A stretch of 32,987 bases of DNA, from positions 1-32,987 of the IMG/VR virus record IMGVR_UViG_3300036945_000271; one strand, given 5' to 3'. A model generated the notes under the pieces. It did no database searches, was not told the DNA's origin, and saw only the letters and a list, made by a program, of their open reading frames with translations. The DNA comes from a virus. The number at the start of each line of letters is the position of its first letter. Positions within the stretch are counted from its first letter, which is position 1. Below are positions 1,140 through 16,948 of the stretch, in pieces. Both the position numbers and the translations under genes were made by a program.

Positions 1140-2114
1140 ATGGCCCTGTCGGACCTGAAAGTTTACAACGATTACGCCTATCTGTCTTTCACCGAAGTTC
1201 TGCGTCAACAAATCGACCTTTTCAACGGCGCGACCGGGGGCGTTATTACCCTGTCGTCGGCGGCAAATCAGGGCGATTTCAACGACGCAGCCTTTTTCGC
1301 CCGCGTGACGGGCGGCTTGGTTCGTCGGCGCAACGCTTACGGTTCGGGCGCTGTTGCCGAAAAAGTCTTGCGTCAACTGCAAGATACTTCGGTGAAAGTC
1401 GCTGCGGGAACCCCGCCCGTTCGGCTTGACCCCGGCCAATTCAACTGGATCAAAATGAACCCCGAAACCGCAGGCGCGGCCATGGGTCAACAGTTGGCGA
1501 AAGACACGCTTGCCGACATGTTGAACACCGCTTTGGGCGTCACCTATTCGGCGCTTGCCCAAGTTTCGGCGGTCGTGTTCGACGCGACGGCGGAAACCAA
1601 CAAAAAGCCGTCTTGGGTCAACTTCAACAAAACGCAAGCTTTGTTCGGCGACCAATCGTCGGCAATTGCGGCTTGGTTGATGCATTCCGCGCCCATGCAT
1701 TCGCTTTACGAAGCCAACTTGAACAACACCGAACGGTTGTTCACTTACGGCAACGTCAACGTCATGCGCGACCCCTTCGGCAAACTGTTGGTTATGACCG
1801 ACAGCCCGCAGCTTGTCGTTGCCGGGTCGCCGACCATGTATCCCGTTCTTGGCCTTGTGTCGGGCGCGGTTTCGGTCGAACAAAACGGCGACTTCGACGC
1901 GAACGAAGAAACGAAGAACGGCGACGAAAACATTGTTCGGACCTATCAAGCCGAATGGTCTTACAATATCGGCGTCAAAGGCTTCGCTTGGGACAAGACC
2001 AACGGCGGCAAATCGCCGACCGACGCGGCCCTTTTCACGGCGACGAATTGGGACAAATACGCGACCGACAACAAAGACGTTGCGGGCGTCGTTTGCCTTA
2101 CCGAACTGGCCTAA
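1140..2114 (+). CDS. Major capsid protein
   Basis: 324 residues from ATG 1140, with AAGGAACC as ribosome site. It begins MALSDLKVYNDYAYLSFTEV and carries blocks typical of a widespread phage major capsid family: GLVRRRNAYGSGAV, SVKVAAGTPPVRLDPGQF, a WLMHSAPMHSLYE segment and a DPFGKLLVMTDSPQLVV strand. Such proteins adopt the HK97 fold and form the icosahedral shell. Length is normal and there is no obvious N-terminal delta domain, which agrees with a separate scaffold gene upstream. A strong GC-rich stem-loop follows the stop, as is common after the most heavily expressed virion gene. Confidence 0.9.
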   Translation: MALSDLKVYNDYAYLSFTEVLRQQIDLFNGATGGVITLSSAANQGDFNDAAFFARVTGGLVRRRNAYGSGAVAEKVLRQLQDTSVKVAAGTPPVRLDPGQFNWIKMNPETAGAAMGQQLAKDTLADMLNTALGVTYSALAQVSAVVFDATAETNKKPSWVNFNKTQALFGDQSSAIAAWLMHSAPMHSLYEANLNNTERLFTYGNVNVMRDPFGKLLVMTDSPQLVVAGSPTMYPVLGLVSGAVSVEQNGDFDANEETKNGDENIVRTYQAEWSYNIGVKGFAWDKTNGGKSPTDAALFTATNWDKYATDNKDVAGVVCLTELA

Positions 2115-2125
2115 GTTCGGCAATG

Positions 2126-2151
2126 ACCGGGGCGCAACGTCGCGCCCCGGT
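2126..2151 (+). terminator. GC-rich stem-loop after the capsid gene
   Basis: A perfect 10-bp inverted repeat, ACCGGGGCGC at 2126-2135 and GCGCCCCGGT at 2142-2151, with a 6-nt loop. It lies 12 nt after the capsid stop. There is no clear run of T after the stem, so it may be a leaky attenuator or an mRNA-stabilising 3' structure rather than a full intrinsic terminator. Confidence 0.55.
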
Positions 2152-2180
2152 TCAACACATTCAAGCGAAAGTCGCCAACC

Positions 2181-2624
2181 ATGAAACCCGCGCTTATCCT
2201 TTACTTCGTTGACGGCCCCGCGCCTTCGCCCCAAGACTTTGTTGAAGCTTCGAATATGTCGGCGAAGGTCGTTTTCCGCAACGCCCGCGCCGTTCCTTCG
2301 GAACCGCATTGCCTTGAAATCTGCGACGGTGTTGCGGGCGTCGTTCCGCCGATTTATGCGGCGAAATATCCGACCGCCGAAACGGCAATCAAGGCGCAAC
2401 GCGACGCCCTTGCAGCCCTTGCGGCCAAGGTCGGCGACCGCCCTGCCCCGACCAAGCCCAAAACGACCGCAGCCAAGCCCGCAGCGCCCGCAGCGCCCGC
2501 GCCTGCGCCTGCGCCTGCGCCTGCGGCCCCAACGCCTGCGGCCATGACTGCCCCCGCCCCGGCTGCGCCTGCGGCCCCTGCGCCCGCGCCCAACGCCCCG
2601 GCATGGCAACCGAACGGCGGTTGA
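2181..2624 (+). CDS. Small virion protein with Ala/Pro tail, probable capsid decoration
   Basis: 147 residues. Residues 1 to about 75 form a compact N-terminal domain containing ILYFVDGPAP and a later DGVAGVVPPIYAAKYP segment. From about residue 90 the protein is almost purely Ala and Pro with a few Lys, Thr and Met residues, a flexible or extended tail of about 55 residues. The N-terminal domain is related to that of the gene at 2687-3262 (shared ILYF-x-x-GP-x-P and D-x-VAG), so the two look like a tandem duplication. Position right after the capsid gene suggests a decoration or head-fibre protein. No enzymatic motif is visible and function is not proven by sequence. Confidence 0.6.
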   Translation: MKPALILYFVDGPAPSPQDFVEASNMSAKVVFRNARAVPSEPHCLEICDGVAGVVPPIYAAKYPTAETAIKAQRDALAALAAKVGDRPAPTKPKTTAAKPAAPAAPAPAPAPAPAAPTPAAMTAPAPAAPAAPAPAPNAPAWQPNGG

Positions 2625-2637
2625 ACCGACCCCCAAG

Positions 2638-2662
2638 CCCTGCCCCGTAATTGTGGGCAGGG
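2638..2662 (+). terminator. Stem-loop between the two decoration-like genes
   Basis: CCCTGCCC at 2638-2645 pairs with GGGCAGGG at 2655-2662 across a 9-nt loop. No T-tract follows. Like the stem-loop after the capsid gene, it is best read as an attenuator or RNA-processing or stability structure between abundant virion genes. Confidence 0.4.
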
Positions 2663-2686
2663 GAAACCCGAACGAAAGTCGAAACC

Positions 2687-3262
2687 ATGACCCGGAAAAT
2701 CCTTTACTTTACCGCAGGGCCAATCCCGACCGAACTTGAACTTGAAGCAATCGACGCAATCAAAGCCGCAATCGAAGTCAAGTTTGAACTTGGCGTTCGG
2801 AATGCCCTTGCGTCGAACGCTTACGGCGCGGGCGTCGAAGCTGCGGATTACGTCGCAGGTTCCAACCCGTCGGGAACTTACCCCGATTACGTTGCGTCGG
2901 TCGCAGCGACGGGAACGTTGACCGTTGTTACGAACCCCGCAGCCGACGAAACGATTGCCGTTGCGGGAACGACCTTCACCTTCAAGGCTTCGGGCGCGAC
3001 GGGCGACCAAATCAACATTGGGGCGAACGTCAACGCGACCGCAACGGCGATTGCCGCAGCCGTCAACGCTTTGGCGTTGGTCAATGCCGCAGCCGTTGGC
3101 GCGGTCGTTACCGTTACCGCAGCGACGGCGGGAACCGCAGGGAATGCCCTTGGCTTGACCGCCAACGGCGCGAAAGTGACACGTTCGGCGGCGACCTTGA
3201 CGGGCGGCGCAGCCGCGACGGGTTATGTCGAATTCGACCCCGAAAACCCGCCTGTTGTGTAA
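2687..3262 (+). CDS. Small virion protein, paralogue of the preceding gene, with beta-rich C-terminal domain
   Basis: 191 residues from ATG 2687, with GAAAG upstream; an in-frame TTG at 2651 lies inside the stem-loop and is not used. The N-terminus (KILYFTAGPIPTELELE) matches the N-terminal domain of the previous gene. From about residue 80 it switches to an Ala/Thr/Val/Gly-rich beta domain containing TFTFKASGATGDQINIGAN and repeated Thr-Ala-Thr turns, a segment type I recognise from many phage surface and tail proteins. The two paralogues share a base but carry different appendages, an Ala/Pro tail versus a folded beta domain. A role as decoration, head fibre or adhesion protein is an inference from position and architecture. 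Confidence 0.6.
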   Translation: MTRKILYFTAGPIPTELELEAIDAIKAAIEVKFELGVRNALASNAYGAGVEAADYVAGSNPSGTYPDYVASVAATGTLTVVTNPAADETIAVAGTTFTFKASGATGDQINIGANVNATATAIAAAVNALALVNAAAVGAVVTVTAATAGTAGNALGLTANGAKVTRSAATLTGGAAATGYVEFDPENPPVV

Positions 3263-3274
3263 AGGGGAAAGTCA

Positions 3275-3796
3275 ATGCCGATTACGATTATCGTTGAAGA
3301 CGGTTCCGAAGTTACCGACGCGAATTCGTTTGTGTCGGTGCAAGACGTTCGCGACTTCGCCGAACTTCGCGGCATTGACTTGACCGCAACCGACGACGAC
3401 GGCGTTGCCGCTTGGATTATCAACGCGGGCGACTACATTGCCGCCGAAGAACCAAAGTTTCAAGGCGACCGCGTTACCGAAACGCAATCGCTTTGTTTCC
3501 CCCGCGTTGGCGTGAAAATCAACGGCTTCGACGTTGCGTCGAACGCCATTCCGAAGCATTTGACTTCGGCGCAATGTCAACTTGTCATTGTGCAAAGCCG
3601 GGGTTTGTCGCTGTTGCCCGACGTGATTGCGACCGATTATATTATCAAGGAAAAGACCGACGTTCTTGAAACGACTTACGCCGACCCGCTTGCCATTGGG
3701 TTGAAGCCCACATTTGGCGCGGTTGAAGCGTTGCTTGCGCCGTTGTATGGACTGTCGCCGACTTCGGGCTTCGGTCTTCGAACGCAGCGGGTTTAG
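3275..3796 (+). CDS. Head-tail connector (DnaT-like domain) protein
   Basis: 173 residues, ATG 3275 preceded by AAGGGGAAAG. The start, ITIIVEDGSEVTDANSFVSV, is characteristic of phage proteins annotated as putative DnaT-like ssDNA-binding (DnaT_2), which in virion operons sit where the adaptor/connector belongs. The body is mostly helical, with a SLCFPRVGV block and a terminal Leu/Pro-rich segment. Position between the decoration genes and the neck genes supports a connector that docks on the portal. The DnaT name describes sequence similarity only; I do not infer a replication role. Confidence 0.65.
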   Translation: MPITIIVEDGSEVTDANSFVSVQDVRDFAELRGIDLTATDDDGVAAWIINAGDYIAAEEPKFQGDRVTETQSLCFPRVGVKINGFDVASNAIPKHLTSAQCQLVIVQSRGLSLLPDVIATDYIIKEKTDVLETTYADPLAIGLKPTFGAVEALLAPLYGLSPTSGFGLRTQRV

Positions 3797-3797
3797 C

Positions 3798-4193
3798 ATG
3801 GGCGAATATGACCGCCAAATTGCAAGCGCCAAGCGTCAAATCGCGAAGAAGGGTCAAGCCGTTGTTTGGTGGCAAATCCCCGACGGCGTTGCCGCCGACC
3901 CGCTTTTGCCGAACCGCAAAACGAACGGTTCGCCCGTGCAATTCCCCGCAACGATTGTCTTCTTTCCGTTGACCGCCGAAAAATACAAAAGCCTTACACG
4001 TCGCCCCGAAACCGAATTGATTACGGGCGCAGTTTACGGGCTTATGGGCGCGGTCGGGTTTGTGCCGAACTTGAAAGACTATATCGAACGGGGCGACGGG
4101 TTGCGTTATCAGATTGACGCAATGAACGTCTTGGCCCCGAACGGTCAACCGATACTTTACACAATCGTTTTCAAAGCGGGGGTTCAATTCTAA
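3798..4193 (+). CDS. Putative neck / head-closure (stopper) protein
   Basis: 131 residues. ATG 3798 starts one base after the previous stop; a longer in-frame extension would overlap that gene and is not supported. The protein begins MGEYDRQIASAKRQIAKKGQ, a charged helix, then becomes beta-rich with a VVWWQIPDG strand and a repeated pattern of short strands ending in IVFKAGVQF. The size, mixed fold and position between connector and tail terminator fit a stopper of the siphovirus neck. I do not recognise a named family, so the role is inferred from gene order. Confidence 0.5.
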   Translation: MGEYDRQIASAKRQIAKKGQAVVWWQIPDGVAADPLLPNRKTNGSPVQFPATIVFFPLTAEKYKSLTRRPETELITGAVYGLMGAVGFVPNLKDYIERGDGLRYQIDAMNVLAPNGQPILYTIVFKAGVQF

Positions 4194-4194
4194 A

Positions 4195-4659
4195 ATGCCG
4201 CTTTTGTTTACCGAAGCCCGCGACGAAGTTGTAAAGGCGTTCGAAACCGCTTGGCAAGCCAACGCGGCTGCAATTGTGGGTTTTACGCCCGAAGTTCGAT
4301 ACAAGGATATTCAAACCCGCGCCCCCGAACCGACGGGCGCTTATTGGGTTCGGGTTTCGCTGCAATCGGTTGACGAAGTTCGAACGGGCGTGTCGTCATG
4401 CCCCGACGAAAACGACCAAGAACAAAAGCGTTACACTGTTTCGGGGCTTGTCTTCGTTCAATTGTTCGGCCCTGTCAACGACGACGAAGCGCAATTGAAC
4501 CTTGAATTGTTGGCAGTTATTGCCCGCAATGCCTTTCGGGGCAAAAGGCGACCGGGCGGGTTGTTCTTTCAGAACGCCCGAATTAACGACCTTACGCCCG
4601 AAGACACGAAAATTCGGTTCAACGTTGTTGCCGAATACCAATACGACGAAATCGGCTAA
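4195..4659 (+). CDS. Putative tail terminator protein
   Basis: 154 residues; ATG 4195 starts one base after the preceding TAA. The order of elements is typical of tail terminators (lambda gpU/DUF4128-like): an N-terminal helix that starts with TEARDEVVKAFETAW, then strands with YWVRVSLQSVDE, a long turn, YTVSGLVFVQLFGP, a helix with LLAVIARNAFRG, and a final strand, KIRFNVVAEYQYDEIG. Terminators cap the completed tail tube and join it to the neck. The gene lies directly before the tail tube gene, the standard place. Confidence 0.65.
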   Translation: MPLLFTEARDEVVKAFETAWQANAAAIVGFTPEVRYKDIQTRAPEPTGAYWVRVSLQSVDEVRTGVSSCPDENDQEQKRYTVSGLVFVQLFGPVNDDEAQLNLELLAVIARNAFRGKRRPGGLFFQNARINDLTPEDTKIRFNVVAEYQYDEIG

Positions 4660-4672
4660 ATAGGGGGTTCCC

Positions 4673-6886
4673 ATGCCTTGCGAAGTGAATAAACGGAATA
4701 GCAACGACGTAACCGCTTGGTTCGCCGAAGAAGAATGCTTGAAACAGCTTGCCGCGAATGCCCAATGGTTCGGCATTGAAGCGAATTCTTACCCCGATTT
4801 CGGGTCGGAAACCGCCCGAACCCGTCGGTCGTTCATTTCGCCGTCGCGTCAAAAGCGCAAGTCGCGGATTACGGGCGTCGAAGCAATGGGCGGGTTTATG
4901 GTCGATTACACCAAATCGAACGTCAACCGTATCGCGCAAGGCTTCTTCTTCGCCGACGCCCGCGAAATCGCGACGACTGCCCCGCTTTCGGCGCAGCTTG
5001 ACCGCGTGATTGCGGCTGTTGCGACGGGTTCGACTTACGACATTGCGTCGGCTGCGCCTTTCGCTGCGGGTCATTTGGTGTTGTCTTCGGGCTTCGTCAA
5101 CGTCGCAAACAACGGCGTCAAGCTTGTGTCGGCGGTCGGCGAAACGGGCGACCCCTATTTGACGACCGACGTTGCGGTTTTCATTGCGCTTGATCGGTCA
5201 ACCGACATGGGCGTTGACATGGGCGCGGGAACGACCCGGTTGCAAAAGGCGCAAGCCGACCTTGGCGAAGTTATCGACGCCATTGAAGCCCGCGCAAACG
5301 TTCTTGGCGTTCGGGTTGACTTGGTTCTTTGCCTTTGGGGGAACGCGGCTGCGGTTACGGTTTACGCCGACGCCGACGCTTCGGATTACATCGCGGCCAA
5401 AGCGGCAATCAACGCAATCACGGCTTCGGGCGTCGCGAACTTTCATACGCCGTTGAATGCCGCGACAACCTATTTCGGCACGACCAACCCGAACCCCGGC
5501 GACGGTTCGCGGAAAGACTTTGTGTTTTTCGTGACGCAGGGAACGCCCGAAGGCGCAACCTTGACGACCGCGACGACCAACAACGCCGACTTGATCGGTC
5601 GGGCCGGGGTTTTCGCGGGCGAAGCTGCGGTTGAAATTTATGGCGTCAACGTTGACAACGCAACGATTACTTCGACGCTTGCAATCGACAACACCGACGG
5701 CGACAGCGTTCCGAACCAAACGGCAAGCCTTTCGACCTTCATTATCCGCAACACGCTTCGGGGCGGCTTGCAGGAAGTCGCGGGCGCAACTGCGGTTCAA
5801 TTGACCGTTTCGCCTGCGGTCGTTGACGAAGGTTACAGCGTCGCCGACCCCTATGCGTTGGAACTGCAAACCGTTGGTTATCAGTTCGCTTCGGGCGACA
5901 TTTCGCTTGCAGTTACCGGGGAAATTCCGGCGCTGATTTCGACCGTTGCCGACTTCACGACTTACGCCAACCTTATCCCCGGCGCTTGGGTCTTTATCGG
6001 CGGCGACGACGTTGCAACCCGCTTCGCAAATAACGTCGGTTACGCCCGTATCGGTTCGGTTTCGGCGAACGCCCTTGTGTTTGACGAAGCGACCTTTGCA
6101 GCCGTCACCGAAGCGGGAACGGGCAAAACCCTGCGGTTGTTTGTGGGAACCATTCTGCGGAATGAAAGCGCCGTGTCGCTTATCAAGTCGCGGTCGTATC
6201 AGTTGGAACGTTACCTTGGCGAAGACGCCGACGGCAACGACAACGCCGAATATCTTATTGGCGCGGTTCCCAACGAAATGAAGTTGACGTTGCCGCTTGA
6301 AGACAAATACACGCTTGATTTCGGCTTTGTTGCCAGCGACACCGAATACCGCGACGGAATGACCGAAGACCAACAAATCAAGACCGGGCTGCGGTTCGCT
6401 GCGCCCGACGAAGACGCTTTCAATTCGGCGACCGACATTTACCGCCAACGCCTTTCAATCAACGACCCGACCAAAGCGAACAAGTTGCCTTTGTTCGGGT
6501 TCGTTACCGAAGGCGAAATTTCGGTTGCCAACGGCGCGACGGCGAACAAGGGTCAAGGCGTCTTGGGCGCGTTTTCCTATCAGTTCGGCGACTTCGAAGT
6601 TTCGGGAACGTTGACCGCCTATTTTACGACGGTCGCAAGTCTTCGGGCCATTCGGTCGAATGCCGACAATATGAACTTCGGCTTCAACACGATTTTGGCC
6701 TTCGACAACGCGGGCGCAATCTTCGACATTCCGTCGCTTGCGGTTGACGGTTCGAAACTGTCGATTGAAAAAGACGCGGCGATTATGTTGCCCGTCAAAC
6801 TGGACGCCAACCAAACGGCAACGAACGGTTACACCCTTCTTTATCAGTCGTTCGCCTATCTTCCCGACTTGGCAATGCCCCGATAA
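4673..6886 (+). CDS. Major tail (tube) protein with an inserted vWA-like domain
   Basis: 737 residues, about twice the usual tube subunit length. The C-terminal half matches phage tail tube proteins of the Phage_tail_tube_2 type: NVGYARIGSVSANALVFDEA, then GKTLRLFVGTILRNES, SYQLERYLGEDADG, EYLIGAVPNEM and a final YQSFAYLPDLAM. The N-terminal part (residues 1 to about 160) also looks tube-like, with SRITGVEAMGG and an interrupted strand. Between them, roughly residues 164-362, sits a vWA-like fold: DVAVFIALDRSTDMG, a TRLQKAQADLGEVIDAIEA helix, VDLVLCLWG, a Thr at 259 and DFVFFVTQGTPEG. The metal site is degenerate (D174-R-S176-T-D178, and Gln289 where Asp is usual). The insertion ends with DNTDGDSVPNQT, a motif also found in the tip protein at 11251-13506. 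The extra domain probably projects from the tail surface. Confidence 0.88.
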   Translation: MPCEVNKRNSNDVTAWFAEEECLKQLAANAQWFGIEANSYPDFGSETARTRRSFISPSRQKRKSRITGVEAMGGFMVDYTKSNVNRIAQGFFFADAREIATTAPLSAQLDRVIAAVATGSTYDIASAAPFAAGHLVLSSGFVNVANNGVKLVSAVGETGDPYLTTDVAVFIALDRSTDMGVDMGAGTTRLQKAQADLGEVIDAIEARANVLGVRVDLVLCLWGNAAAVTVYADADASDYIAAKAAINAITASGVANFHTPLNAATTYFGTTNPNPGDGSRKDFVFFVTQGTPEGATLTTATTNNADLIGRAGVFAGEAAVEIYGVNVDNATITSTLAIDNTDGDSVPNQTASLSTFIIRNTLRGGLQEVAGATAVQLTVSPAVVDEGYSVADPYALELQTVGYQFASGDISLAVTGEIPALISTVADFTTYANLIPGAWVFIGGDDVATRFANNVGYARIGSVSANALVFDEATFAAVTEAGTGKTLRLFVGTILRNESAVSLIKSRSYQLERYLGEDADGNDNAEYLIGAVPNEMKLTLPLEDKYTLDFGFVASDTEYRDGMTEDQQIKTGLRFAAPDEDAFNSATDIYRQRLSINDPTKANKLPLFGFVTEGEISVANGATANKGQGVLGAFSYQFGDFEVSGTLTAYFTTVASLRAIRSNADNMNFGFNTILAFDNAGAIFDIPSLAVDGSKLSIEKDAAIMLPVKLDANQTATNGYTLLYQSFAYLPDLAMPR

Positions 6887-6952: not shown

Positions 6953-7372
6953 ATGTCACTTTTCGCCCAATTCGAAACAAGCGCCGAAAAAGAAATTGAA
7001 GGCGTCGAAATCACTTACGGCCCGAACGAAGACGGTTCAATTCCGACGTTCATTTTGTCGCGCATGGGCCAAGCGAACAAAGCTTACACCAAAGCGTTGA
7101 ACGCTGCGACGAAGCCTTACGCCCGTCAAATCAAGTTGGGAACGCTTGCCGACGAAACAAGCGACGACCTGTTTATTCGGGTCTTCGTCAAAACCGTTCT
7201 TCGCGGCTGGAAAAACGTTTACAGTAAAGACGGAACGCTTTTGCCCTATTCTTCGGCGAACGCAATTGCGCTGTTGAAGGCGCTTCCCGACCTTTACGAC
7301 GACCTTTCGGAAAAAGCCCAATCGGCGGCGCTTTTCCGCGAAGAAACGAACGAAGACGACGCAAAAAACTAA
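6953..7372 (+). CDS. Tail assembly chaperone, short (G) form
   Basis: 139 residues from ATG 6953 to TAA 7370-7372. It starts MSLFAQFETSAEKEIEGVEI, then PTFILSRMGQANKAYTKALN, and ends in an acidic EETNEDDAKN tail. Small acidic proteins between the tail tube and tape measure genes are the G-type chaperones that coat the tape measure during tail assembly. The last three sense codons, GCA AAA AAC, form a classic -1 slippery site immediately before the stop, so a minority of ribosomes should continue into the downstream frame and make the GT fusion. The paired arrangement supports the call more strongly than sequence similarity does. Confidence 0.8.
   Translation: MSLFAQFETSAEKEIEGVEITYGPNEDGSIPTFILSRMGQANKAYTKALNAATKPYARQIKLGTLADETSDDLFIRVFVKTVLRGWKNVYSKDGTLLPYSSANAIALLKALPDLYDDLSEKAQSAALFREETNEDDAKN
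7363..7369 (+). promoter_or_regulatory. -1 ribosomal frameshift slippery heptamer A AAA AAC
   Basis: In the frame of the G gene the bases read A-AAA-AAC followed directly by TAA. A -1 slip re-pairs both tRNAs on AAA-AAA, and the next codons are CTA ATC GAA, entering the overlapping downstream frame. The heptamer matches the X-XXY-YYZ rule exactly, and an adjacent stop codon can favour pausing. Confidence 0.85.
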
Positions 7373-7734
7373 TCGAAGTTTTGGCGTATTTAATCGAACA
7401 AGGGCCAACAGAACAAACGTTACTTAAACAAGCCCTTCGACTTGGCGAACCGATACCCGATAAAATCGCCAATGCGCCCGAACTTCGACTTGGTTTACAA
7501 CTGTTTATCGACGCCTTCTTTGACCTAGACAGCGAACGAACGCATGGGGATAATTTGGCGTTGATACCTTGGCGAAGCATTCGGGAATATGCTTTGGCCT
7601 TTGACTTTGACGAAGAACAAACCGCCGATTTGTTTTACTTTGTGCGGAAAATGGATAGCGACCATTTGAAGCGATTGGCGGCGAAAAGGAAGGCGAATGT
7701 CGGGAAACCTGCTAGACCTAGCAAAGCGACTTGA
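7369..7734 (+). CDS. Tail assembly chaperone, T extension made by -1 frameshift (GT form)
   Basis: This frame is open upstream of the slippery site and ends at TGA 7732-7734. It adds 121 residues after 139 residues of G, giving a GT protein of about 260 residues. The segment has no ATG at its start and no ribosome site; the only nearby initiator is a TTG at 7381, a poor candidate. It is helical, with LRLGLQLFIDAFFDLDSE, WRSIREYALAFDFDEEQT and LFYFVRKMDSDHLK. T domains bind tail tube subunits while G binds the tape measure. The end overlaps the next gene by 38 nt. Confidence 0.82.
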   Translation, partial: LIEVLAYLIEQGPTEQTLLKQALRLGEPIPDKIANAPELRLGLQLFIDAFFDLDSERTHGDNLALIPWRSIREYALAFDFDEEQTADLFYFVRKMDSDHLKRLAAKRKANVGKPARPSKAT

Positions 7735-8131
7735 AGCAAGGGCCGAAACCCTTGACGAAGACGCTTCCCGAATTGCGGTCGAAGTTGCAACGGCGGTCGT
7801 TACCGACTTGATACAGGTAACGCCCGTCGATACTTCCCGCGCTTTGTCGAACTGGATTGTCACGCTAGGGGCGTTCAACAATTACAGCATTTTCGCTTAT
7901 TACCCCGGCGTTTTCGGTTCAACGCGGGGTTCGTCGGCTGCGGCTGCAATTGCCGAAGCGGTTAGGGTTTTGGCGACCAAGAAACCGGGCGTTCCGATTT
8001 GGATTACGAATAACCTTCGTTATATCCGACCGTTGAACGAAGGTCATTCGAAACAAGAACCTGCGGGTTTTGTTGAACGGGCGGCCCTAAAGGGTCGGAA
8101 TATCGCCAAAGCGGCGAAACTGCGGGGTTAA
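7697..8131 (+). CDS. HK97 gp10-like neck / tail-completion protein
   Basis: 144 residues, ATG 7697 preceded by AAAAGGAAGG, overlapping the end of the GT reading frame. The N-terminal helix (LLDLAKRLEARAETLDEDAS) is followed by TPVDTSRALSNWIVTLG, then PIWITNNLRYIRPLNEGHSK and PAGFVERAAL. This order of a D-T/S-x-x-L-x-x-(S/N)W element, an N-N-L-x-Y-I turn and a closing helix is that of HK97 gp10-type proteins, which complete the head-tail joint. Its position between chaperone and tape measure is unusual, because such genes more often lie between connector and tail terminator. The family call is fairly good, the exact role less so. Confidence 0.62.
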   Translation: MSGNLLDLAKRLEARAETLDEDASRIAVEVATAVVTDLIQVTPVDTSRALSNWIVTLGAFNNYSIFAYYPGVFGSTRGSSAAAAIAEAVRVLATKKPGVPIWITNNLRYIRPLNEGHSKQEPAGFVERAALKGRNIAKAAKLRG

Positions 8132-8132
8132 T

Positions 8133-11100
8133 ATGTCAGACGAAAAGATTGCAATTGAAATTACCGACAACGTTGCCGGGTCAATTCAAACGAAAATTCG
8201 GGGCATTGCCGACGAAAGCCGTTCGGCATTTACCGCAGTCGAAAAGCTGAAAGCCGCGCTTGCCAGCGTGTCGGCGTCGTCGGGAACGGCGAAGCTTCAA
8301 ACCGAATTGAACAAGACGCGAACCGCTTCAACGCAGCTTGAAGCCGCCGTTGCAAAGACGGCGCAGGCGCAGGCGGTCGCAGCGACCGCAGCCCAACGCC
8401 TAGCGACCGAACAACAGAACACGGCAACGGCTGCGGCTAAGGCGGCTGCGGCGCAGGCTGCGGTTACTGCGGCCCTATCCAACGCGGCTGCGGCCCAAGA
8501 CAGGGCTGCGGGCGCGGCCATGCGCCTGCAAGCGGCCCAAGACCGACAGGCGGCTTCGGCTGCGAAACAGGCTGCGGCGTCGGCGGCTGCGGGAACCGCC
8601 GAACAACAACACGCGGCCATGTTGGAACAACTGCGAATGAAATATAACCCGTTGTTCGCGGCGTCGAAGCAATACGAAACGGCCCTTCGCGATATTGCAG
8701 CCGCCGAAACGTTGGGGGCAATTAGCGCCCGCGAAGCGACCGCAGCACGGGAACGGGCGGCGCAGGCAATGGCCCCAATGCCGGGGATTGTGGGCAAGTA
8801 TGGCGCTGCGGTCAATTCGTCTTCGGGCTATACGGCAAACTTGGCGTCGCAGTTTAACGACATTGGCGTAATGCTTGCAGCGGGGCAAAACCCGTTGCAA
8901 TTGGCGTTGCAGCAAGGAACGCAGATTTCGCAAGTGTTGAACCAAATTGCAGGTTCCGCAGGCGGGGGCGCGGTCGGCGCTTTGAAAGCTTTGGGCGCGG
9001 GTTTCCTGTCAATGATTAACCCGATTTCGATTGCAACGATTGCGATTATTGCTTTCGGCGCAATGTTCTTTCAATGGCTTATGAAGCTTATTCCCGAAAC
9101 GGTTACGCTTAAAGACCGAATGGACAACCTTTCAAAATCGGTCGCCGATTATACGCATTTCGCGGAAATTGCAGGCATGACGACCGCCGAATTGCAAAAG
9201 AAGTTCGGAACGGTCGGCGTTGAAATTCAAAAGGCGTCGAAGCTGTTGCAAGACTTCACGCAACAACAGGCGATTGCCGATATGTCGGCGGCGCTTAAAA
9301 CGCTTTCCGAAGAATTCGGCGGCTTTTCCAAGCAAATCGTCGGTGTTTCGCGAAGCGGCGGAATGGGAATGTCGGCTTACCAACAAACGGTTTGGAACCT
9401 TCGAACCGAATTCGAATTGACCAAGACGCAAGCCGAAGCTTTGACGCAATCGCTTGCCAATATGTCGAACGCGGCGACCCCACAAGCTGCGGTTCAAGCA
9501 AGCGCCGACTTCGCGCAACAGCTTGTCAACATTTACGGAACGACCCAACAAATCCCGCCCGAACTGTTGAAAATGGCAATTGCCGCGCAAAAGGTCGCCG
9601 AAAGCGGGGGCGGTATTGTCGCGACGCAACAGGCGCAATTGCAAGCGGTTCTTGCGACGGCTGCGGCGCAAGCGGGCGCATGGGCCAAAGATGCAATCGA
9701 ACGGTTGAAAGCCCGCGTTGACGCGAACGCCCTGATTAAGTCTTATCAGGATCAAGCGGCAATGGTTCTTTTGGTCGCGCAATATGGCGAAAATTCGGTT
9801 CAAGTGACGAAAGCCCGTCAAGCCGCCGAAATGGCGGTTCTTGCCGAACAAGTCAAAGGCTTGAATGTAACCCAAGACGTGAAACAGGCAATTCTTGACG
9901 CTGCGGGCGCGACCGACGCGACCATTAACGCAACGAACGCTTGGGCCGGGGCAATGGCGAACGTTGCGAACCAAGTTCGCGGCATTCTGTCGGCATTGGC
10001 GAACCTGTCGGGAACGGTTATTGCGAACGCTTCGCGCCAAGTCGAAATTGACGCATTGAAGGCGGGGAAGTCGGTTGCCGACGCAAGGCTTGCCGGGGCG
10101 CGTGACGAAATCGAACGCGAAACGACAATGCGGGTCGCAGGGGCGCAAAATATCTTTGAAAAGGGGCTTGCCTATCTGCAACGCGGCGCAGAAATGCGGG
10201 CGCTTGACCAACAAACGGAATTGACCGAACTGCAAACCGTTGCCGCAGCCCGCGACCGTGCCGCAGCGGGTTCGGGCGGTTCAAGGGCTTCGACGGCTGC
10301 AACGGCTGCGGAAAAAGAAGCGAAGAAGGAATTGAACGAACAATTGAAGCGCGAACAAGATTTACTTGACGCGACTTTTGGCAAGCGCGAAGAATTCATT
10401 AAACAGGTTCAAACCCTGTCGGCGCTTATGCATGACCCTTCGAAAGGGTTCGGTCAAAACGAAGCTTTGTCGGCATTGGCGCAAACTGAAATCAGCGCAT
10501 ATCTTGACCATTTGCCGGAAATGTTGAACGCCCGCGTCGCCGAATTCGGGGCGATGTATGAACAAATTGATTTGCTTCGGCAAAACGATTTGATTAGCGA
10601 ACAATCGGCGAAGGCTGCAAAAATCGCGATTTGGGCCGACGAACAAAAAGCCAAGACGCAAATCTTTTCGAACTTCTTCGGCGGTATCGCGCAACTGTCG
10701 TCTTCGAAGAACAAAGAATTGGCCCGTATCGGCAAAGCCGCAGCAATCACGCAAACGATTATCAACACTTATCAGGGCGCGACGGCGGCTTATGCGTCAA
10801 TGGCTGCAATTCCCGTTGTTGGCCCCGCGCTTGGCATTGCTGCGGCTGCGGCTGCGGTTGCAGGGGGCTTGGCGAACGTCGCGGCCATTCGGGCGCAAGG
10901 TTCCGAAGGCTATATGTCGGGCGGTTATACGGGCAACGGGGCGCGACACGAAATCGCGGGTTCGGTTCATGGTCGCGAATACGTTATGGACGCGGCGACG
11001 ACTTCCCGAATTGGCGTCGCTGATTTGAACGCCCTTCGGTCGGGCGCTGCAACGGTTCAACGCGACGCCCCGAACGCGGGTCAAGCTGCGGCTGCGCCGT

Positions 11101-11258
11101 CGGCGACCGCAAGCGGCGCAACGTTGAACGCCCGAATTATCAACATGATTGACCCCGCAATGGTCGGCGATTACTTGGCGACGCCCGAAGGCGAACAAGT
11201 AATTGTCAACGTCATGCATCGCAACGCCGACACATTTAAGGCTTTCCAAAATGGTTAA
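8133..11258 (+). CDS. Tape measure protein
   Basis: 1041 residues. The first ~190 are Ala/Gln/Thr-rich coiled coil. Around residues 233-265 lies a conserved block, SQFNDIGVMLAAGQNPLQLA, typical of lambda gpH/TMP_2-like tape measures. Hydrophobic segments sit at about residues 277-317 and 889-919 and may insert into the host inner membrane during DNA ejection. Long helical stretches fill the middle. The C-terminus has GSVHGREYVMDAATTSRIGV, a block found at the end of many tape measures. Length sets tail length, so this predicts a tail of roughly lambda size or a little longer. The gene starts two bases after the previous stop and overlaps the next gene by 8 nt. Confidence 0.92.
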   Translation: MSDEKIAIEITDNVAGSIQTKIRGIADESRSAFTAVEKLKAALASVSASSGTAKLQTELNKTRTASTQLEAAVAKTAQAQAVAATAAQRLATEQQNTATAAAKAAAAQAAVTAALSNAAAAQDRAAGAAMRLQAAQDRQAASAAKQAAASAAAGTAEQQHAAMLEQLRMKYNPLFAASKQYETALRDIAAAETLGAISAREATAARERAAQAMAPMPGIVGKYGAAVNSSSGYTANLASQFNDIGVMLAAGQNPLQLALQQGTQISQVLNQIAGSAGGGAVGALKALGAGFLSMINPISIATIAIIAFGAMFFQWLMKLIPETVTLKDRMDNLSKSVADYTHFAEIAGMTTAELQKKFGTVGVEIQKASKLLQDFTQQQAIADMSAALKTLSEEFGGFSKQIVGVSRSGGMGMSAYQQTVWNLRTEFELTKTQAEALTQSLANMSNAATPQAAVQASADFAQQLVNIYGTTQQIPPELLKMAIAAQKVAESGGGIVATQQAQLQAVLATAAAQAGAWAKDAIERLKARVDANALIKSYQDQAAMVLLVAQYGENSVQVTKARQAAEMAVLAEQVKGLNVTQDVKQAILDAAGATDATINATNAWAGAMANVANQVRGILSALANLSGTVIANASRQVEIDALKAGKSVADARLAGARDEIERETTMRVAGAQNIFEKGLAYLQRGAEMRALDQQTELTELQTVAAARDRAAAGSGGSRASTAATAAEKEAKKELNEQLKREQDLLDATFGKREEFIKQVQTLSALMHDPSKGFGQNEALSALAQTEISAYLDHLPEMLNARVAEFGAMYEQIDLLRQNDLISEQSAKAAKIAIWADEQKAKTQIFSNFFGGIAQLSSSKNKELARIGKAAAITQTIINTYQGATAAYASMAAIPVVGPALGIAAAAAAVAGGLANVAAIRAQGSEGYMSGGYTGNGARHEIAGSVHGREYVMDAATTSRIGVADLNALRSGAATVQRDAPNAGQAAAAPSATASGATLNARIINMIDPAMVGDYLATPEGEQVIVNVMHRNADTFKAFQNG

Positions 11259-13506
11259 GTTGACCGTCGCGCCTTACGGCGACCTTGCCTTTCTGCCCTT
11301 TCAACCTGCGGTTCCCTTTACCGAACGTTTGTCGTATTTGACCGACGTTGTTGAAGCCCATAACGGGCAAGAAAGTCGCACGGGGCGGCGAACCAAACCG
11401 CGCCAAGAAATCCGTTACAAATATCCCGCCAACCTTGAAGAAATGCCGCAGGCTTACAACGTCGCTTCGGGGGCGCTTCGGCAAAAATGGGCGGTTCCGA
11501 TTTGGGCCGAAGTTCAATACGTCGGCACGGTATCAGGAACGACCGTCGCTTGTAACGTCGGCTTGTCGAAGTTCGAAGTCGGCAAGCCTGTCTTGGTTTA
11601 CGTCAACAACGCGACCTTCGCGACGGGCTTGGTTGTGGGCATTGGTTCGGCGTCCATAACCCTTGACACGCCCCTTCCCCGGCTGCGGGGCGCGTTCCTT
11701 ATGCCCGTTCGGGTCGCTTGGTTGGTCGGCACGGTCGAACGCCCGACGACGGGCTTTAACGGCATGGCGTCGGCGGCTTTCGAAGTGATTGACCCGCCCC
11801 AAATCGAAACGGAATATATCGGGTTGCAGCTTTCAATTGACAGTTCGGTTTCAATGTCTTTGACGACGCTTGACGGCCCGACCCGTCTTGAAGCCGTCAA
11901 AACGCAACTGTTGTCGATTTTGACCAAGCTGCAAACATTCGTTGAAGAACGCGGAATTCGGCTTGACTTGTCAATTGCCGGGTTTCACGACGGCGGGTCG
12001 CAACCGTATTATTTTTCGAATGCGATTGTTGACTTTACCGCAGCCCGCGCTTTCGTTTCGGCCCTGTTGATTGCTTCGGGCGACGCCTTGCTTGAACAAT
12101 GCGCCGACAATGCCCGACAGTTCTTCGAAGTTGACAGCCCGAACAACGGCAACCGAAACGACGTTGTTATTGTTGTAACCGACGGCAACGTTTCGGATAA
12201 CGAAGCGGTCGTTTCTTCGGCTGCGGATATGATCGGGCGAACGGGCGCTTACGCTGCGCCGAAAGACCTTGATATTCGCGTGTTGCAGCTTTTGAACGAC
12301 CTTCCCCCGCCCCCTGAATTGGTGTTGAATTGGGATAACCCGCAAAGCCGGGGCGGCGACGATTGGTCGAACTTTTCGGCGCTTGGCGCAGCTTCGGGCG
12401 AAACTTACGGTTCGTTTGCAAATGCTTACCTTGTCGGAACGACAGGTTCGGGCCGAACCGAACAAAATACGCCTGTCGCCGTAACGAATGGTTTGGCTTA
12501 TACGGTAACGGGTTGGTTCAAAGAAGCAAGCGGTTCGACTGCAAACCTTGCGCTTCGCGACCCAACTGCGGGCGTCTTGTCGGTCATTAGCGGCCCGCTT
12601 TCGGCCCCTGTTGCGGGCGTTCAAAGTTGCGGCCCGATTACAAACATTCAAACCGTTGACTTGGGCGGGGGCGTTTGGAAATGGTCGTTTGATATTGAAC
12701 CCGCAGGCGCGGGAAACATTCGGGCGGGCGGGGGCAATACGGTTTCGGGTCAAACGATTGTCGTTTTTGCCGTTAGCGTCAAAGCGAAGATTAGCGGCAA
12801 CGATTACACGGCGCGGCTTGAAGACTTCGATAACACCGACGACGACGCAGTTCCGAACGCGACAAGTTACGGGGCAGATTTTCAAACGGTTTTCGACGCC
12901 ATGTTTGAAAACTATTTCGGTCGGTATTATAACGGCTTGCCGTTTGTTTCCGACGCTTCGGAATTGAACGGGGGTTCGGTCAATAAAGCCTTCGAACGCA
13001 GCCAAGACCGAATTGACTTCGACCTTGGCGTTATCACCAATCGAACGACATGGGAAGCGACCCGCGAAACGCTTGACTTCAAAGGTTCCGCCGAAGGGTT
13101 GGCGGAAATCAAAGCGGCGAAACAGTTCTTCGCAAAGCGGGTCGGCAAGCTGAATTCGTTTTATATGCCCACATTCGAACACAACATTCGGTTGTTGACG
13201 ACGGGTCTTATTACCGGGTCGGTCGCAATCGAAAACGACGATTTTTTGAATTGGTCTTCGGCCCAACATATCGGCTTTGAAGACCTGTCGGGCAATTGGC
13301 ATTTGACGGAAATTATCGGCGCGGTTCAAACGACCGACGATATTACGACGTTAACGCTTTCCCCGCCCGTGTCGGTCGAAGCTTCCCAATTGGCGCGGGC
13401 GTCGTTCTTGACCGTTAATCGGCTTGACACCGACGCCCTTGAACTGTCATTTGTTGGCAACAGTTGCGCCAACTATACCCTTCGAATGACGCAGGTTCCC
13501 GAATGA
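11251..13506 (+). CDS. Tail tip protein containing a vWA domain with an intact metal site and an inserted carbohydrate-binding-like domain
   Basis: 751 residues from ATG 11251, which overlaps the tape measure stop by 8 nt; an in-frame upstream codon at 11203 would sit inside that gene. Residues 1-185 and about 555-751 form the tail part, with EEMPQAYNVASGALRQKWAV, ERPTTGFNGMASAAFEV, WEATRETLDF, KQFFAKRVGKLNSFYMPTFE and HIGFEDLSGNWHLTEI. Between them is a vWA domain: IGLQLSIDSSVSM carries D197-S-S199-V-S201, and VVIVVTDGNVSD has T310-D311-G312, so the metal site looks functional. At about 351-512 a beta-sandwich domain interrupts the vWA fold (FANAYLVGTTGSGRTEQNTP, YTVTGWFKEASGSTANLALR, GGGVWKWSFDIEP), resembling phage carbohydrate-binding modules. 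The vWA fold then resumes with DNTDDDAVPNAT. Position before the gpL-like gene suggests a distal tail or gpM-like role; the domains suggest host surface contact. Confidence 0.8.
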   Translation: MVKLTVAPYGDLAFLPFQPAVPFTERLSYLTDVVEAHNGQESRTGRRTKPRQEIRYKYPANLEEMPQAYNVASGALRQKWAVPIWAEVQYVGTVSGTTVACNVGLSKFEVGKPVLVYVNNATFATGLVVGIGSASITLDTPLPRLRGAFLMPVRVAWLVGTVERPTTGFNGMASAAFEVIDPPQIETEYIGLQLSIDSSVSMSLTTLDGPTRLEAVKTQLLSILTKLQTFVEERGIRLDLSIAGFHDGGSQPYYFSNAIVDFTAARAFVSALLIASGDALLEQCADNARQFFEVDSPNNGNRNDVVIVVTDGNVSDNEAVVSSAADMIGRTGAYAAPKDLDIRVLQLLNDLPPPPELVLNWDNPQSRGGDDWSNFSALGAASGETYGSFANAYLVGTTGSGRTEQNTPVAVTNGLAYTVTGWFKEASGSTANLALRDPTAGVLSVISGPLSAPVAGVQSCGPITNIQTVDLGGGVWKWSFDIEPAGAGNIRAGGGNTVSGQTIVVFAVSVKAKISGNDYTARLEDFDNTDDDAVPNATSYGADFQTVFDAMFENYFGRYYNGLPFVSDASELNGGSVNKAFERSQDRIDFDLGVITNRTTWEATRETLDFKGSAEGLAEIKAAKQFFAKRVGKLNSFYMPTFEHNIRLLTTGLITGSVAIENDDFLNWSSAQHIGFEDLSGNWHLTEIIGAVQTTDDITTLTLSPPVSVEASQLARASFLTVNRLDTDALELSFVGNSCANYTLRMTQVPE

Positions 13507-14303
13507 CAATCGCGAAAGACCTTTACCGTTTTATTGAAGGCGATAGCGCCTTTATTTACACGGTTACAAGCGCCGACGACCCCGAAGATTACGACGCGGG
13601 CGACGGCGTTGAAACGTATGAAAGCGTCGCAATTGGTCGTGACGACGTGCAAAGCAAGGCGGAACTGTCGAAAGACAAGTTGACCGTTTCGCTTGCAATC
13701 GACAACCCCGTTGGTTTCAAATGGTTTACGTCGTCGCTTGATTTCCCGTTGACTTTGACCATTTTTAGCAAGGAAGGCGACGACGTTGAAGTTGAATGGA
13801 AAGGGCGCTTGGCAAACGTATCGCCGAACAAGAAAACCTTTGACTTCGGCTTTGAAAGTATTTTCACGTCGCTGCGTCGCCCCGGTCTTCGGCAACGCTA
13901 TCAAATCACTTGCCCCGCGCTTCTTTACGGGCAAGGCTGCAACCTTGACAAAGAAGACTTCGCGCATTCGGGCGCAATAACCGCAGTCGCCGACAACGTT
14001 GTAACGTTTCCGGCTGCGGCTGGATTTGCCGACGGTTACTTTACCGGGGGCATTTTCGAAGACAACGCGGGGAACCTGCGGTTTATCACCAACCAAACGG
14101 GCGCGACGTTGACCCTTATTCGGTCAATGACCCCGCTTATCGACTACATTGACGCGAACGGTTACAGCGGGTTGACCGGGCGCATTTTCCCCGGCTGCGA
14201 CCGCGCCGTTACGACCTGCAACAGCAAGTTCGGGAACCTGTTGAACAATCGTTCGTTCCCGTTCATTCCGCAACTTAACCCGTTTAACGGGTCGATTGTC
14301 TAA
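13503..14303 (+). CDS. Tail tip protein of the DUF2163/BR0599 (lambda gpL-like) family
   Basis: 266 residues; its ATG overlaps the previous TGA (ATGA), showing translational coupling. The N-terminal beta domain includes DVQSKAELSKDKLTVSLAID and FEWK-like strands. The C-terminal part holds four cysteines, C137 and C146 (CPALLYGQGC), then C232 and C239 (PGCDRAVTTC), ending with a GNLLNNRSFPFIP block. This four-cysteine layout is diagnostic of the BR0599 C-terminal domain. In lambda gpL the corresponding domain binds an iron-sulfur cluster, so the same is likely here but not shown by sequence alone. The protein joins the tape measure end of the tail to the central hub. Confidence 0.85.
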   Translation: MTIAKDLYRFIEGDSAFIYTVTSADDPEDYDAGDGVETYESVAIGRDDVQSKAELSKDKLTVSLAIDNPVGFKWFTSSLDFPLTLTIFSKEGDDVEVEWKGRLANVSPNKKTFDFGFESIFTSLRRPGLRQRYQITCPALLYGQGCNLDKEDFAHSGAITAVADNVVTFPAAAGFADGYFTGGIFEDNAGNLRFITNQTGATLTLIRSMTPLIDYIDANGYSGLTGRIFPGCDRAVTTCNSKFGNLLNNRSFPFIPQLNPFNGSIV

Positions 14304-14524: not shown

Positions 14525-14721
14525 CGGGCGACGGCAAAATTCGAATGGCCCATATTCGCGGGGCGCAAATGTGTTCGTCGGGGGTTCGCGATTGGGCGAA
14601 GCTTCATAATATCGACTTTAACGACTTCCTTAAAAACGGAATTGACGTTGAAGTTGTCAGAAATACGGGCGACGCTTTGGCGCTTCAAGTCGTGAAGGTT
14701 TACGAAAATGGCGTCAAGTAA
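14521..14721 (+). CDS. Small tail-module protein, function unknown
   Basis: 66 residues. ATG 14521 overlaps the previous stop (ATGA), and the end overlaps the hub gene by 14 nt, so all three are translationally coupled. It is a compact alpha/beta protein with IRMAHIRGAQMCSSGVRDWA, then NIDFNDFLKNGIDVEVV and GDALALQVVKV. Small proteins with this H-I-R-x-A-x-x-C-x-x-G-x-R-x-W pattern are encoded between gpL-like and gpJ-like genes in related phages. I know of no assigned activity; a role in hub folding or tip assembly is inferred from gene order. Confidence 0.6.
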   Translation: MTGDGKIRMAHIRGAQMCSSGVRDWAKLHNIDFNDFLKNGIDVEVVRNTGDALALQVVKVYENGVK

Positions 14722-16948
14722 AAAGCAAACAATCGGTTACAAGTATTACGCGGGAATTCATATGGCCCTTTGTCATGGGCCAATTGACAAACTTCTTCGC
14801 GTCGCTGTTGACGATAAGGAAATATGGTCGGGCGAAGCGTCGGGTCATTCGTCAATTTATGTCAACTTGCCCGACCTATTCGGCGGCGAAACCAAACAAG
14901 GCGGAATTGCCGGAACGTTTGACTTCGAACCGGGCGACGCTTCGCAGGTTCAAAACGATTACCTTGTGTCGCGGCTTGGGTCGGTCATTCCAGCGTTTCG
15001 CGGTGTTGTGGGCATTGTTCTTCGGCGAATGTATCTGTCAATGAACCCATATTTGAAGGTTTGGAAATTCCGCCTTCAACGTGTTCATATCCGCAACGAC
15101 GGGGAACCGCAATGGTATGACGCGAAAGCCGGGGTTGTGCGAACGGTCGGTTCGACTTCGATTGTTTGTTTGAACCCTGCCCACATTATCCGCGAATGTT
15201 TGACAAATGGCCTTTGGGGTATGGGTTACACCGACGGCGATATTGACGACGTTTCTTTTCAAGCCGCAGCCGACACGCTTTACGCCGAAGGCTTGGGAAT
15301 GTCGCTGTTTTGGGATACGCAAACCGAAATCGGCGATTTTACGAAGTTGGTTCAAAAGCATATCGACGCAGTAACGACCGTAAATCGGCGAACGGGCAAG
15401 TTTCAAATCAAGCTTATTCGCGCCGATTACGACGTTGGCGATTTGCTTGTTTTGGACAAGTCAAACATTGTCAAGATTGACGACTTCAAGCGCCCTTCGT
15501 TCGGTGAACTTTGCAATTCGGTAACGGTCAATTATTGGGATTTCACAACCGGGCAAACTTCAAGCTTGACGATTTCCGACATTGCCCTTGCACAATCGCA
15601 GGGCGGGGAAATCAATACGAAAGTCGATTACGAAGGTTTTGTTGACGCCGAAACCGCGTCGAAAGTCGCGCAACGCGATTTGAAGTCGCTTTCAACCCCG
15701 CTTGCAACTTGCACAATTTACGCTTCGAAGGTCGCCCGAAACTTGAATATCGGCGACGTTTTCAAGTTGACTTGGCCCGATTACGGAATTGGCGAAATGG
15801 TCATGCGCGTTACTGGCATGGCTTACGGCAACGGCAAAACGAAAATGGTTCGTATCAGTTGCACCCAAGACGCTTTCGGTTATCCGACCGAAGCTTATAT
15901 TCAACAGCCGGGTTCGGGTTGGGTCAATCCCAACGGCCCGCCGACCGAACCCGACGGTCATGTTGCCTTTGAAATGCCTTATTTCGAAATGGTTCAACGG
16001 CAAGGTCAAGCGGTCGTCAACGCGGCTTTGGCGGTCAATCCCGAAATCGGTTACGCCATGGGCGCAGCGGGTCGCCCGCTTACGACCGCAGCCATTAACG
16101 CCGAATTCCAAACCGACAACGGCGCGGGTTATGTTCGGCGGGGCGAATTGGATTTTGCGCCCGTTGCAACCCTTGTCGCAGACATTGACCAATTCGTTGA
16201 TACGTTCGACATTACCGACGTTTCAAACCTGTCGGGAATTGCCCTGAATACATGGGTTCAAATCGGGCCGGAACTTATGGGCGTCGTTGCCGTGTCGTCG
16301 TCTTCGATTACGGTAAAGCGGGGCGTTCTTGACACCAACCCGGCGAAGCATCTTGCCGACGACCGCCTTTATTTTTGGGATGAATACGGCGCAGCCGACC
16401 CGACCGAATACGTTGACGGCGAAAGCATTTCGGTCAAAATCTTGCCAGTGTCGGGAAGCGGTGTTTACCCCTTGGCAAGCGCGACCGCCGACGTTGTTGA
16501 TATTGTGGGCAGGGGCGCAAAGCCTTATCCGCCTGCAAATATCGCTTACAATGGGCTTCAATTCCCGACGTTGCCAAGCTTCGGCGACGACATTATTATA
16601 ACTTGGAATTCGCGCAACCGATTGACCCAAACGGGGGGTTCGCTTGTCGGTTGGTTCGACGGCGACGTTACGGTTGAACCGGGCGTTGAATACGAAGTTC
16701 GGGTTTACGATAAAGACAACGTTCTTGCGTTGACTTACACGGGCATAACCGCGACGACTTACACTTTGCTTGACGACGACGTTAGCGATTACGAACCGTT
16801 TATTTACGTCGAAGTTCTTGCGTATCGCGGAACGAATTACAGCTTTCAAACCATTCGGCAAAAGCTTAAAGTCGTTCCGACCGAACAAACCGAAACCGGG
16901 TTGCCCATGCAAACCGAAGACACAAAACGACTAAGGCTTGAAGGGTAA
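14708..16948 (+). CDS. Central tail hub protein, lambda gpJ-like
   Basis: 746 residues from ATG 14708. The N-terminus (IGYKYYAGIHMALCHGPIDK, then LLRVAVDDKEIWSG) is that of putative phage tail proteins carrying the Phage-tail_3 hub domain. Further conserved blocks are GIVLRRMYLSMNPYLKVWKF, NPAHIIRECLTNGLWGMGY, SLFWDTQTEIGDFTKLVQKH and RTGKFQIKLIRADYDV. From about residue 500 the protein is beta-rich, with DISNLSG-like turns and a fibronectin-like section near 620-735. Hub proteins close the tail tube and carry or hold the receptor-binding fibres. Length is short of lambda gpJ, consistent with separate fibre genes downstream. Confidence 0.88.
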   Translation: MASSKKQTIGYKYYAGIHMALCHGPIDKLLRVAVDDKEIWSGEASGHSSIYVNLPDLFGGETKQGGIAGTFDFEPGDASQVQNDYLVSRLGSVIPAFRGVVGIVLRRMYLSMNPYLKVWKFRLQRVHIRNDGEPQWYDAKAGVVRTVGSTSIVCLNPAHIIRECLTNGLWGMGYTDGDIDDVSFQAAADTLYAEGLGMSLFWDTQTEIGDFTKLVQKHIDAVTTVNRRTGKFQIKLIRADYDVGDLLVLDKSNIVKIDDFKRPSFGELCNSVTVNYWDFTTGQTSSLTISDIALAQSQGGEINTKVDYEGFVDAETASKVAQRDLKSLSTPLATCTIYASKVARNLNIGDVFKLTWPDYGIGEMVMRVTGMAYGNGKTKMVRISCTQDAFGYPTEAYIQQPGSGWVNPNGPPTEPDGHVAFEMPYFEMVQRQGQAVVNAALAVNPEIGYAMGAAGRPLTTAAINAEFQTDNGAGYVRRGELDFAPVATLVADIDQFVDTFDITDVSNLSGIALNTWVQIGPELMGVVAVSSSSITVKRGVLDTNPAKHLADDRLYFWDEYGAADPTEYVDGESISVKILPVSGSGVYPLASATADVVDIVGRGAKPYPPANIAYNGLQFPTLPSFGDDIIITWNSRNRLTQTGGSLVGWFDGDVTVEPGVEYEVRVYDKDNVLALTYTGITATTYTLLDDDVSDYEPFIYVEVLAYRGTNYSFQTIRQKLKVVPTEQTETGLPMQTEDTKRLRLEG

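Follow-up and report, generated by a model that had tools for sequence, protein, structure and literature searches.

Among the closest described counterparts of the protein considered here is gp49, a distal tail protein from Pseudomonas phage JBD30. Its two-domain subunits form a trimer that adapts the six-fold tube to the three-fold baseplate, and the extra domains of the protein are N-terminal (PMC11445458). It is chiefly domains of Ig-like fold that are known to have spread among unrelated structural genes of phages. Passages in two papers (PMC10276861 and PMC10721106, citing Fraser et al. 2006) present the Ig-like domains of phages as accessory parts of several structural proteins, thought to be weak adsorption aids. 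The locus analysed here carries vWA domains in two of its tail proteins. It lies in a 32,987-base IMG/VR virus record, taken at full length and referred to below as the window, in which the tail genes follow the usual siphophage order. The closest named relatives of this virus are the Rhodobacter Titanvirus phages; Septimatrevirus is more distant.

Domain organization of the distal tail protein

The reading frame at 11251-13506 begins with an ATG at position 11251, in an 8-base overlap with the end of the tape-measure gene, and homologues of its product start alike, with MVKL or MAKV. Both observations indicate that the gene is real, as the first-pass annotation had assumed in describing a "tip protein". 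The product falls in the PHROG 1082 tail family. Its family profile matches the solved distal tail proteins of JBD30 (E=1e-38) and Chi (E=8e-24), and the AlphaFold model of the product superimposes on both at Z scores of 33-34 over some 375 residues. Two beta-sandwich halves, mutually related in a single hhalign comparison (E=4.8e-5), and the position of the gene directly 3' of the tape measure are characters of the JBD30/Chi type. Given the profile matches and the model alignment, the product is, by sequence and predicted fold, a siphophage distal tail protein of this type; the same matches ruled out a terminal receptor-binding fibre. By analogy with JBD30, it should be a trimer at the tube end. 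The features of the gene, all on the + strand, are as follows.

11251..13506, +, distal tail protein, 751 aa (PHROG 1082, profiles, fold)
11251..11805, +, first Dit-like half, aa 1-185 (AF2 pLDDT mostly 85-97)
11809..12300, +, main part of the vWA domain, aa 187-350 (homologue comparison, fold)
11839..11853, +, MIDAS motif DSSVS, aa 197-201, kept (alignment)
12085..12087, +, codon of Ala279, at the position of the MIDAS threonine of relatives (alignment of 33 domains)
12178..12186, +, MIDAS motif TDG, aa 310-312, kept (alignment)
12313..12795, +, orphan beta-rich nested domain, aa ~355-515 (homologue gap, model strands)
12829..12858, +, DNTDDDAVPN, aa 527-536, in the tip vWA, local variant of the family-wide DNTPxDGVPVV
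12880..12918, +, final helix of the vWA, aa 544-556, C-terminal to the nested domain (model)
12928..13503, +, second Dit-like half, aa 560-751 (AF2 pLDDT mostly 83-97, structural match to Chi/JBD30)

The vWA domain is located between the two Dit-like halves. Its fold occupies residues 187-557 with one long interruption and aligns with many vWA domains at VIA-align Z scores of about 18-19, the structural alignments extending to residue 555-558. The match in Pfam was weak (PF00092, E=0.0015, 19.3 bits, under the gathering score of 23.8); that score is passed by relatives from the same family, namely a hub protein (L138, 37.8) and a J protein (L323, 37.4). Hence the family is vWA, and the copies in the window are divergent members. 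By family profile the assignment is unambiguous, and this part of the annotation stands. The vWA of RcSpartan gp22 is inserted at the same junction, and the distal tail homologues of SCUT-S3 and QH3 lack the domain entirely. No hidden vWA was seen in distal tail proteins from other phages that measure about 550 aa; the extra sequence of these proteins is N-terminal and corresponds to a different insertion. A 940-aa distal tail protein (L009, 7161-9980) has its vWA at aa 548-736, preceded by a large extra region, and keeps three of the five residues of the MIDAS metal site.

A nested stretch of about 160 aa splits the core of the tip vWA from the DNTD motif and the last helix. All vWA-bearing homologues examined skip aa ~338-500 of the window protein and are thus without this nested domain, whose strands were modelled at 392-509 with low confidence. 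Searches of phage records, IMG/VR, Pfam, PHROGs and the PDB returned no credible relative of it; one candidate, 7onh (7e-5), was discarded as noise, no single stretch passing alone. In a Robiginitomaculum MAG (L316, 7527-10487), the vWA of the J protein is matched as two segments, aa 155-253 and 282-355, and is perhaps another interrupted vWA.

The tube copy, the metal site and the DNTD motif

The second vWA of the window lies in the tail tube protein.

4673..6886, +, tail tube protein with second vWA (PF18906 Phage_tube_2, E 5.5e-13; PHROG 290)
5165..5761, +, tube vWA, aa 165-363 (match to BAPIC_0004 J, fold)
5687..5716, +, DNTDGDSVPN, aa 339-348, in the tube vWA (alignment)

This domain matches the vWA of the BAPIC_0004 J protein (38.8% identical, E 3e-19) and reaches fold Z scores of up to 18.5 over residues 164-360, the only region where the model is confident; outside the vWA and its neighbouring strands the tube model is poor. 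Pfam VWA gave no match to it. Taken together, the tip and tube copies have fold Z scores of 16-19. Comparison of the tip and tube vWAs by BLASTP yielded 28% identity over 177 aa (E=4e-12), plus a short match at the DNTD motif. Together with the fold matches of both domains, this ruled out chance similarity as the source of the assignments and bore out the proposal that the tube holds a homologue of the tip domain. The site that it occupies is only a short hairpin in other tubes. Among 122 tube reading frames, two carry a vWA: that of the window and a near-identical one on a 4560-base fragment (L035) from a second metagenome (3300043137), which matches window positions 1773-6332 with one mismatch, tube vWA included. 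The protein sequence of the domain is identical in this fragment, and the tube vWA is therefore not a sequencing error, which is all that the fragment shows. Extra domains of other kinds (TVTI/GTGT-type repeats, N-terminal or internal) were seen in the tubes of L001 (RcSpartan, 1356-3569), L178 (1265-3205) and L167 (1146-3074). Since these lie at places unlike that of the window's vWA, the tube family tolerates several kinds of insert.

A complete MIDAS (DxSxS, T, D) is present in 28 of 33 distinct domains of the family. In a wider survey all five residues were found at 167 of 176 loci, many of them near-copies, so that these are not 167 independent cases. The DSSVS and TDG motifs described at the tip are indeed there. 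The loop between helices alpha2 and alpha3, however, reads SGDALL against GGTxxx in relatives, which puts Ala279 in the place of the threonine and leaves four of five MIDAS residues. The tube copy has DRSTD, Ala255 and TQG, that is D-S-D, A and Q at the five positions, with two of five kept. Helix alpha3 starts at aa 281 (tip) and 258 (tube) in the models, in agreement with the register of the alignment; both window copies thus lack the MIDAS threonine, and neither has the full DxSxS, T and D set. Contrary to what the first-pass annotation stated, then, the site at the tip is not intact. Its contrast between one functional and one degenerate copy holds insofar as the tube domain is the more degenerate of the two but is overstated, the tip domain being damaged as well. 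In integrin I domains the MIDAS threonine coordinates the metal in the ligand-binding state. Judged from these residues, the tip copy may bind metal weakly, or bind a ligand without metal; for the tube copy, the likeliest role is that of a surface decoration without metal binding. In the J-protein vWAs of Gilliamella (L307, L308, L310, L313), glutamate replaces the MIDAS threonine at all four loci.

Both copies end in a DNTD-x-D-x-VPN motif, which had been taken to imply a common origin by duplication or recombination. As an argument for a pairwise duplication it fails: the form DNTPxDGVPVV is near-invariant throughout the whole vWA family, and the motif therefore supports family membership rather than a private link between tip and tube. 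Only the exact DNTD..VPN spelling is confined to the two window copies, whose DNA matches at 74% in this stretch.

Distribution and origin of the tail vWA family

Surveys took in viral contigs and a collection of bacterial and archaeal genomes. They revealed a single vWA family in four tail proteins, J/megatron (the commonest), hub, distal tail and tube, in counts biased to hub and J because the peptide pattern of the last two scans was drawn from hub and J copies. The J-slot domains occur in many Rhodobacteraceae genomes and also in Halomonas, Gilliamella and Luteimonas. Traces of the family are visible in databases: PHROG 15205 unites vWA with the hub family, and RcTitan gp22 bears the UniProt name "VWFA domain-containing protein". 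The proposed search of siphoviruses for vWA pairs showed that pairs recur, as hub and J in PaMx28, QH3, BAPIC_0004, V45iii and CN1, as distal tail and J in Wenxinia marina, and as tube and distal tail in the window phage, the only one to use the tube slot. The two remaining carrier slots are represented in the window by the following genes.

13506..14303, +, baseplate hub protein (PF09356/PF09931, alignment with QH3, survey)
14708..16948, +, J/megatron tail protein (PF13550, survey)

Neither contains a vWA, although the hub slot bears one in PaMx28, QH3 and CN1 and J is the family's commonest slot.

In a prophage-like region of Wenxinia marina DSM 24838 (L323), both the distal tail gene (4183-5874) and the J gene (7167-10553) carry the domain. 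The distal-tail vWA shares 71% identity with the J copy of its own genome and as much as 73% with the J copies of related genomes, a situation best explained by recent copying from J into the distal tail gene. The 71% identity thus points to recent copying between unrelated tail genes. Over the family as a whole the vWA tree follows the slot closely, with four changes of slot where three is the least possible and shuffled labels give a mean of 19; moves between slots are accordingly rare but real.

A first tree of 33 rows failed to place the window copies, owing to long rows. The longest rows were omitted from later trees, a choice made after the first tree had been seen. In two such trees, the tip and tube copies grouped with the distal-tail vWAs of Titanvirus type (91% and 87% bootstrap). 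The tube copy fell nearest to the Titan copies, with bootstrap values of 89% and 87% and SH-aLRT values of only 71 and 35. The hypothesis that all distal-tail vWAs go back to one origin was rejected (AU p=0.003; L077 and L009 were left out as too divergent), so that by these trees the distal-tail vWAs have at least two origins.

The common origin claimed for the tip and tube domains is therefore upheld in part. Both are vWA domains of one family and belong to one group of the tree (87-91%), rather than having unrelated folds or distant positions; the trees do not make them each other's closest relatives, a sister pairing appearing in just 5-12% of bootstraps, and do not reject such a pairing either (AU p 0.37 and 0.45). 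Direct mutual duplication within the phage's own lineage would agree with the shared Titan-type grouping and with the private DNTD..VPN spelling and its 74% alike DNA. We nevertheless regard it as somewhat unlikely in view of the low sisterhood values and of the tube copy being closer to BAPIC_0004 J (38.8%) than to the tip (28%). Our preferred reading is an old transfer of a distal-tail vWA copy into the tube gene within the window lineage; because the branches are long, the evidence for this origin is moderate.

Possible roles of the module and comparison with known systems

We propose that both vWA domains of the window are copies of one accessory module able to move between tail genes. Within the distal tail protein it lies in the linker of the Dit-like halves and, with a trimer as expected from homology to JBD30 gp49, three vWA domains would surround the tip. 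In the tube it occupies the beta-hairpin region, one per subunit, which would probably amount to hundreds per tail; display on the outer surface of the tube is inferred, the model being poor beyond the vWA and neighbouring strands. The role of the family would be adhesion to the host surface, dependent on metal and probably both weak and multivalent. To this reading as a whole, an accessory mobile module at tip and tube from a family of metal-dependent adhesins, we assign a probability of roughly 55%.

The adhesin role is suggested by the retention of the MIDAS at 167/176 loci, by adhesin vWAs (LapA, Aeromonas) among the best sequence matches of solved structure, and by the location of the module at the tail tip. 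On these grounds the family probably mediates metal-dependent adhesion to the host, with a weaker case for the two window copies, which lack the MIDAS threonine. For the tip vWA, adhesion is plausible from fold and family, and is likely to take a weakened or altered form in this phage. Two further points count against an adhesive role: profile matches to collagen VI vWAs are as good as those to the adhesins, and vWA domains also have intracellular assembly roles.

The modules might instead be structural, bracing the tip ring or docking fibres or hub, with a metal site that serves folding or contact between subunits rather than host binding. The frequent involvement of vWA domains in protein-protein assembly fits this idea, as do the insertion at the junction of two ring-forming halves and the occurrence of hub and J, or distal tail and J, pairs in neighbouring tip proteins that could touch. 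Many relatives in the same slot are without a vWA, however, and the domain must therefore be dispensable for assembly of that type of tail; moreover, the window phage has a vWA on the tube, away from the tip. We consider a purely structural role unlikely. Still less probable is that the two domains are remnants in decay that no longer have a function in this phage. Loss of MIDAS residues from both, their long branches and the interruption of the tip copy by another domain would be expected of decay; against it, the reading frames are open and the fold-defining elements are intact on either side of the nested insert. The identity of the tube protein in the second metagenome (one mismatch in 4560 bases) excludes only a sequencing error.

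The proposed accessory adhesin could be extended, tentatively, to a vWA/MIDAS module that moves among siphophage tail genes, from J to hub, from J to distal tail at least twice and, in this phage, from distal tail to tube, and that gives the tail a metal-gated, multivalent hold on the host surface at several levels, the length of the tube among them. This wider scheme is possible, with the odds somewhat against it. If true, the tube copy would line the entire tail shaft with a domain of adhesion type, an arrangement for which we found no description.

The first-pass annotation knew of no account of paired vWA tail proteins, and our searches agree: pairs exist, and the open-access papers searched describe no vWA modules in phage tails, mentioning only unrelated vWA genes. 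Both "vWA" and "Willebrand" are missing from a paper on tail and adsorption proteins of Mesyanzhinovviridae (PMC11946847). The set of phage-tail vWA modules is widespread and apparently undescribed.

Among known systems, JBD30 gp49 (8rk3) and the Chi distal tail protein (8vjh) share the two-half Dit-like core of the window protein; no vWA is reported in either solved core, whereas here a vWA with a nested domain separates the halves. As the cores of vWA carriers have solved structures in JBD30 and Chi, the role of accessory tail domains is directly testable. RcTitan gp22 and other Titanvirus distal tail proteins are the same protein, with the same insertion site and vWA family; unlike the window, RcTitan has a full MIDAS and neither a nested domain nor a tube vWA. 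The hub and J proteins of PaMx28, QH3, Bordetella CN1 and Rhodobacteraceae prophages carry the window's vWA family, often in pairs, but in other carrier proteins, with an intact MIDAS in nearly all and none together with a tube vWA. The vWAs of the bacterial adhesins LapA (9no5) and the Aeromonas large adhesin (9das) have the same fold and give strong profile matches, yet belong to giant cellular adhesins and not to phage tails; as collagen VI vWAs match about equally, these matches denote likeness and are no argument for descent. Finally, the module works like Ig-like decoration without being a member of it, having a different fold and a metal site and being inserted, in the cases seen here, into proteins of the tail tip and into one tube. 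It thus appears as a promiscuous tail decoration with a fold uncommon for that role and, if our reading is true, vWA would be a second such mobile module, one whose metal site can be abolished by single changes.
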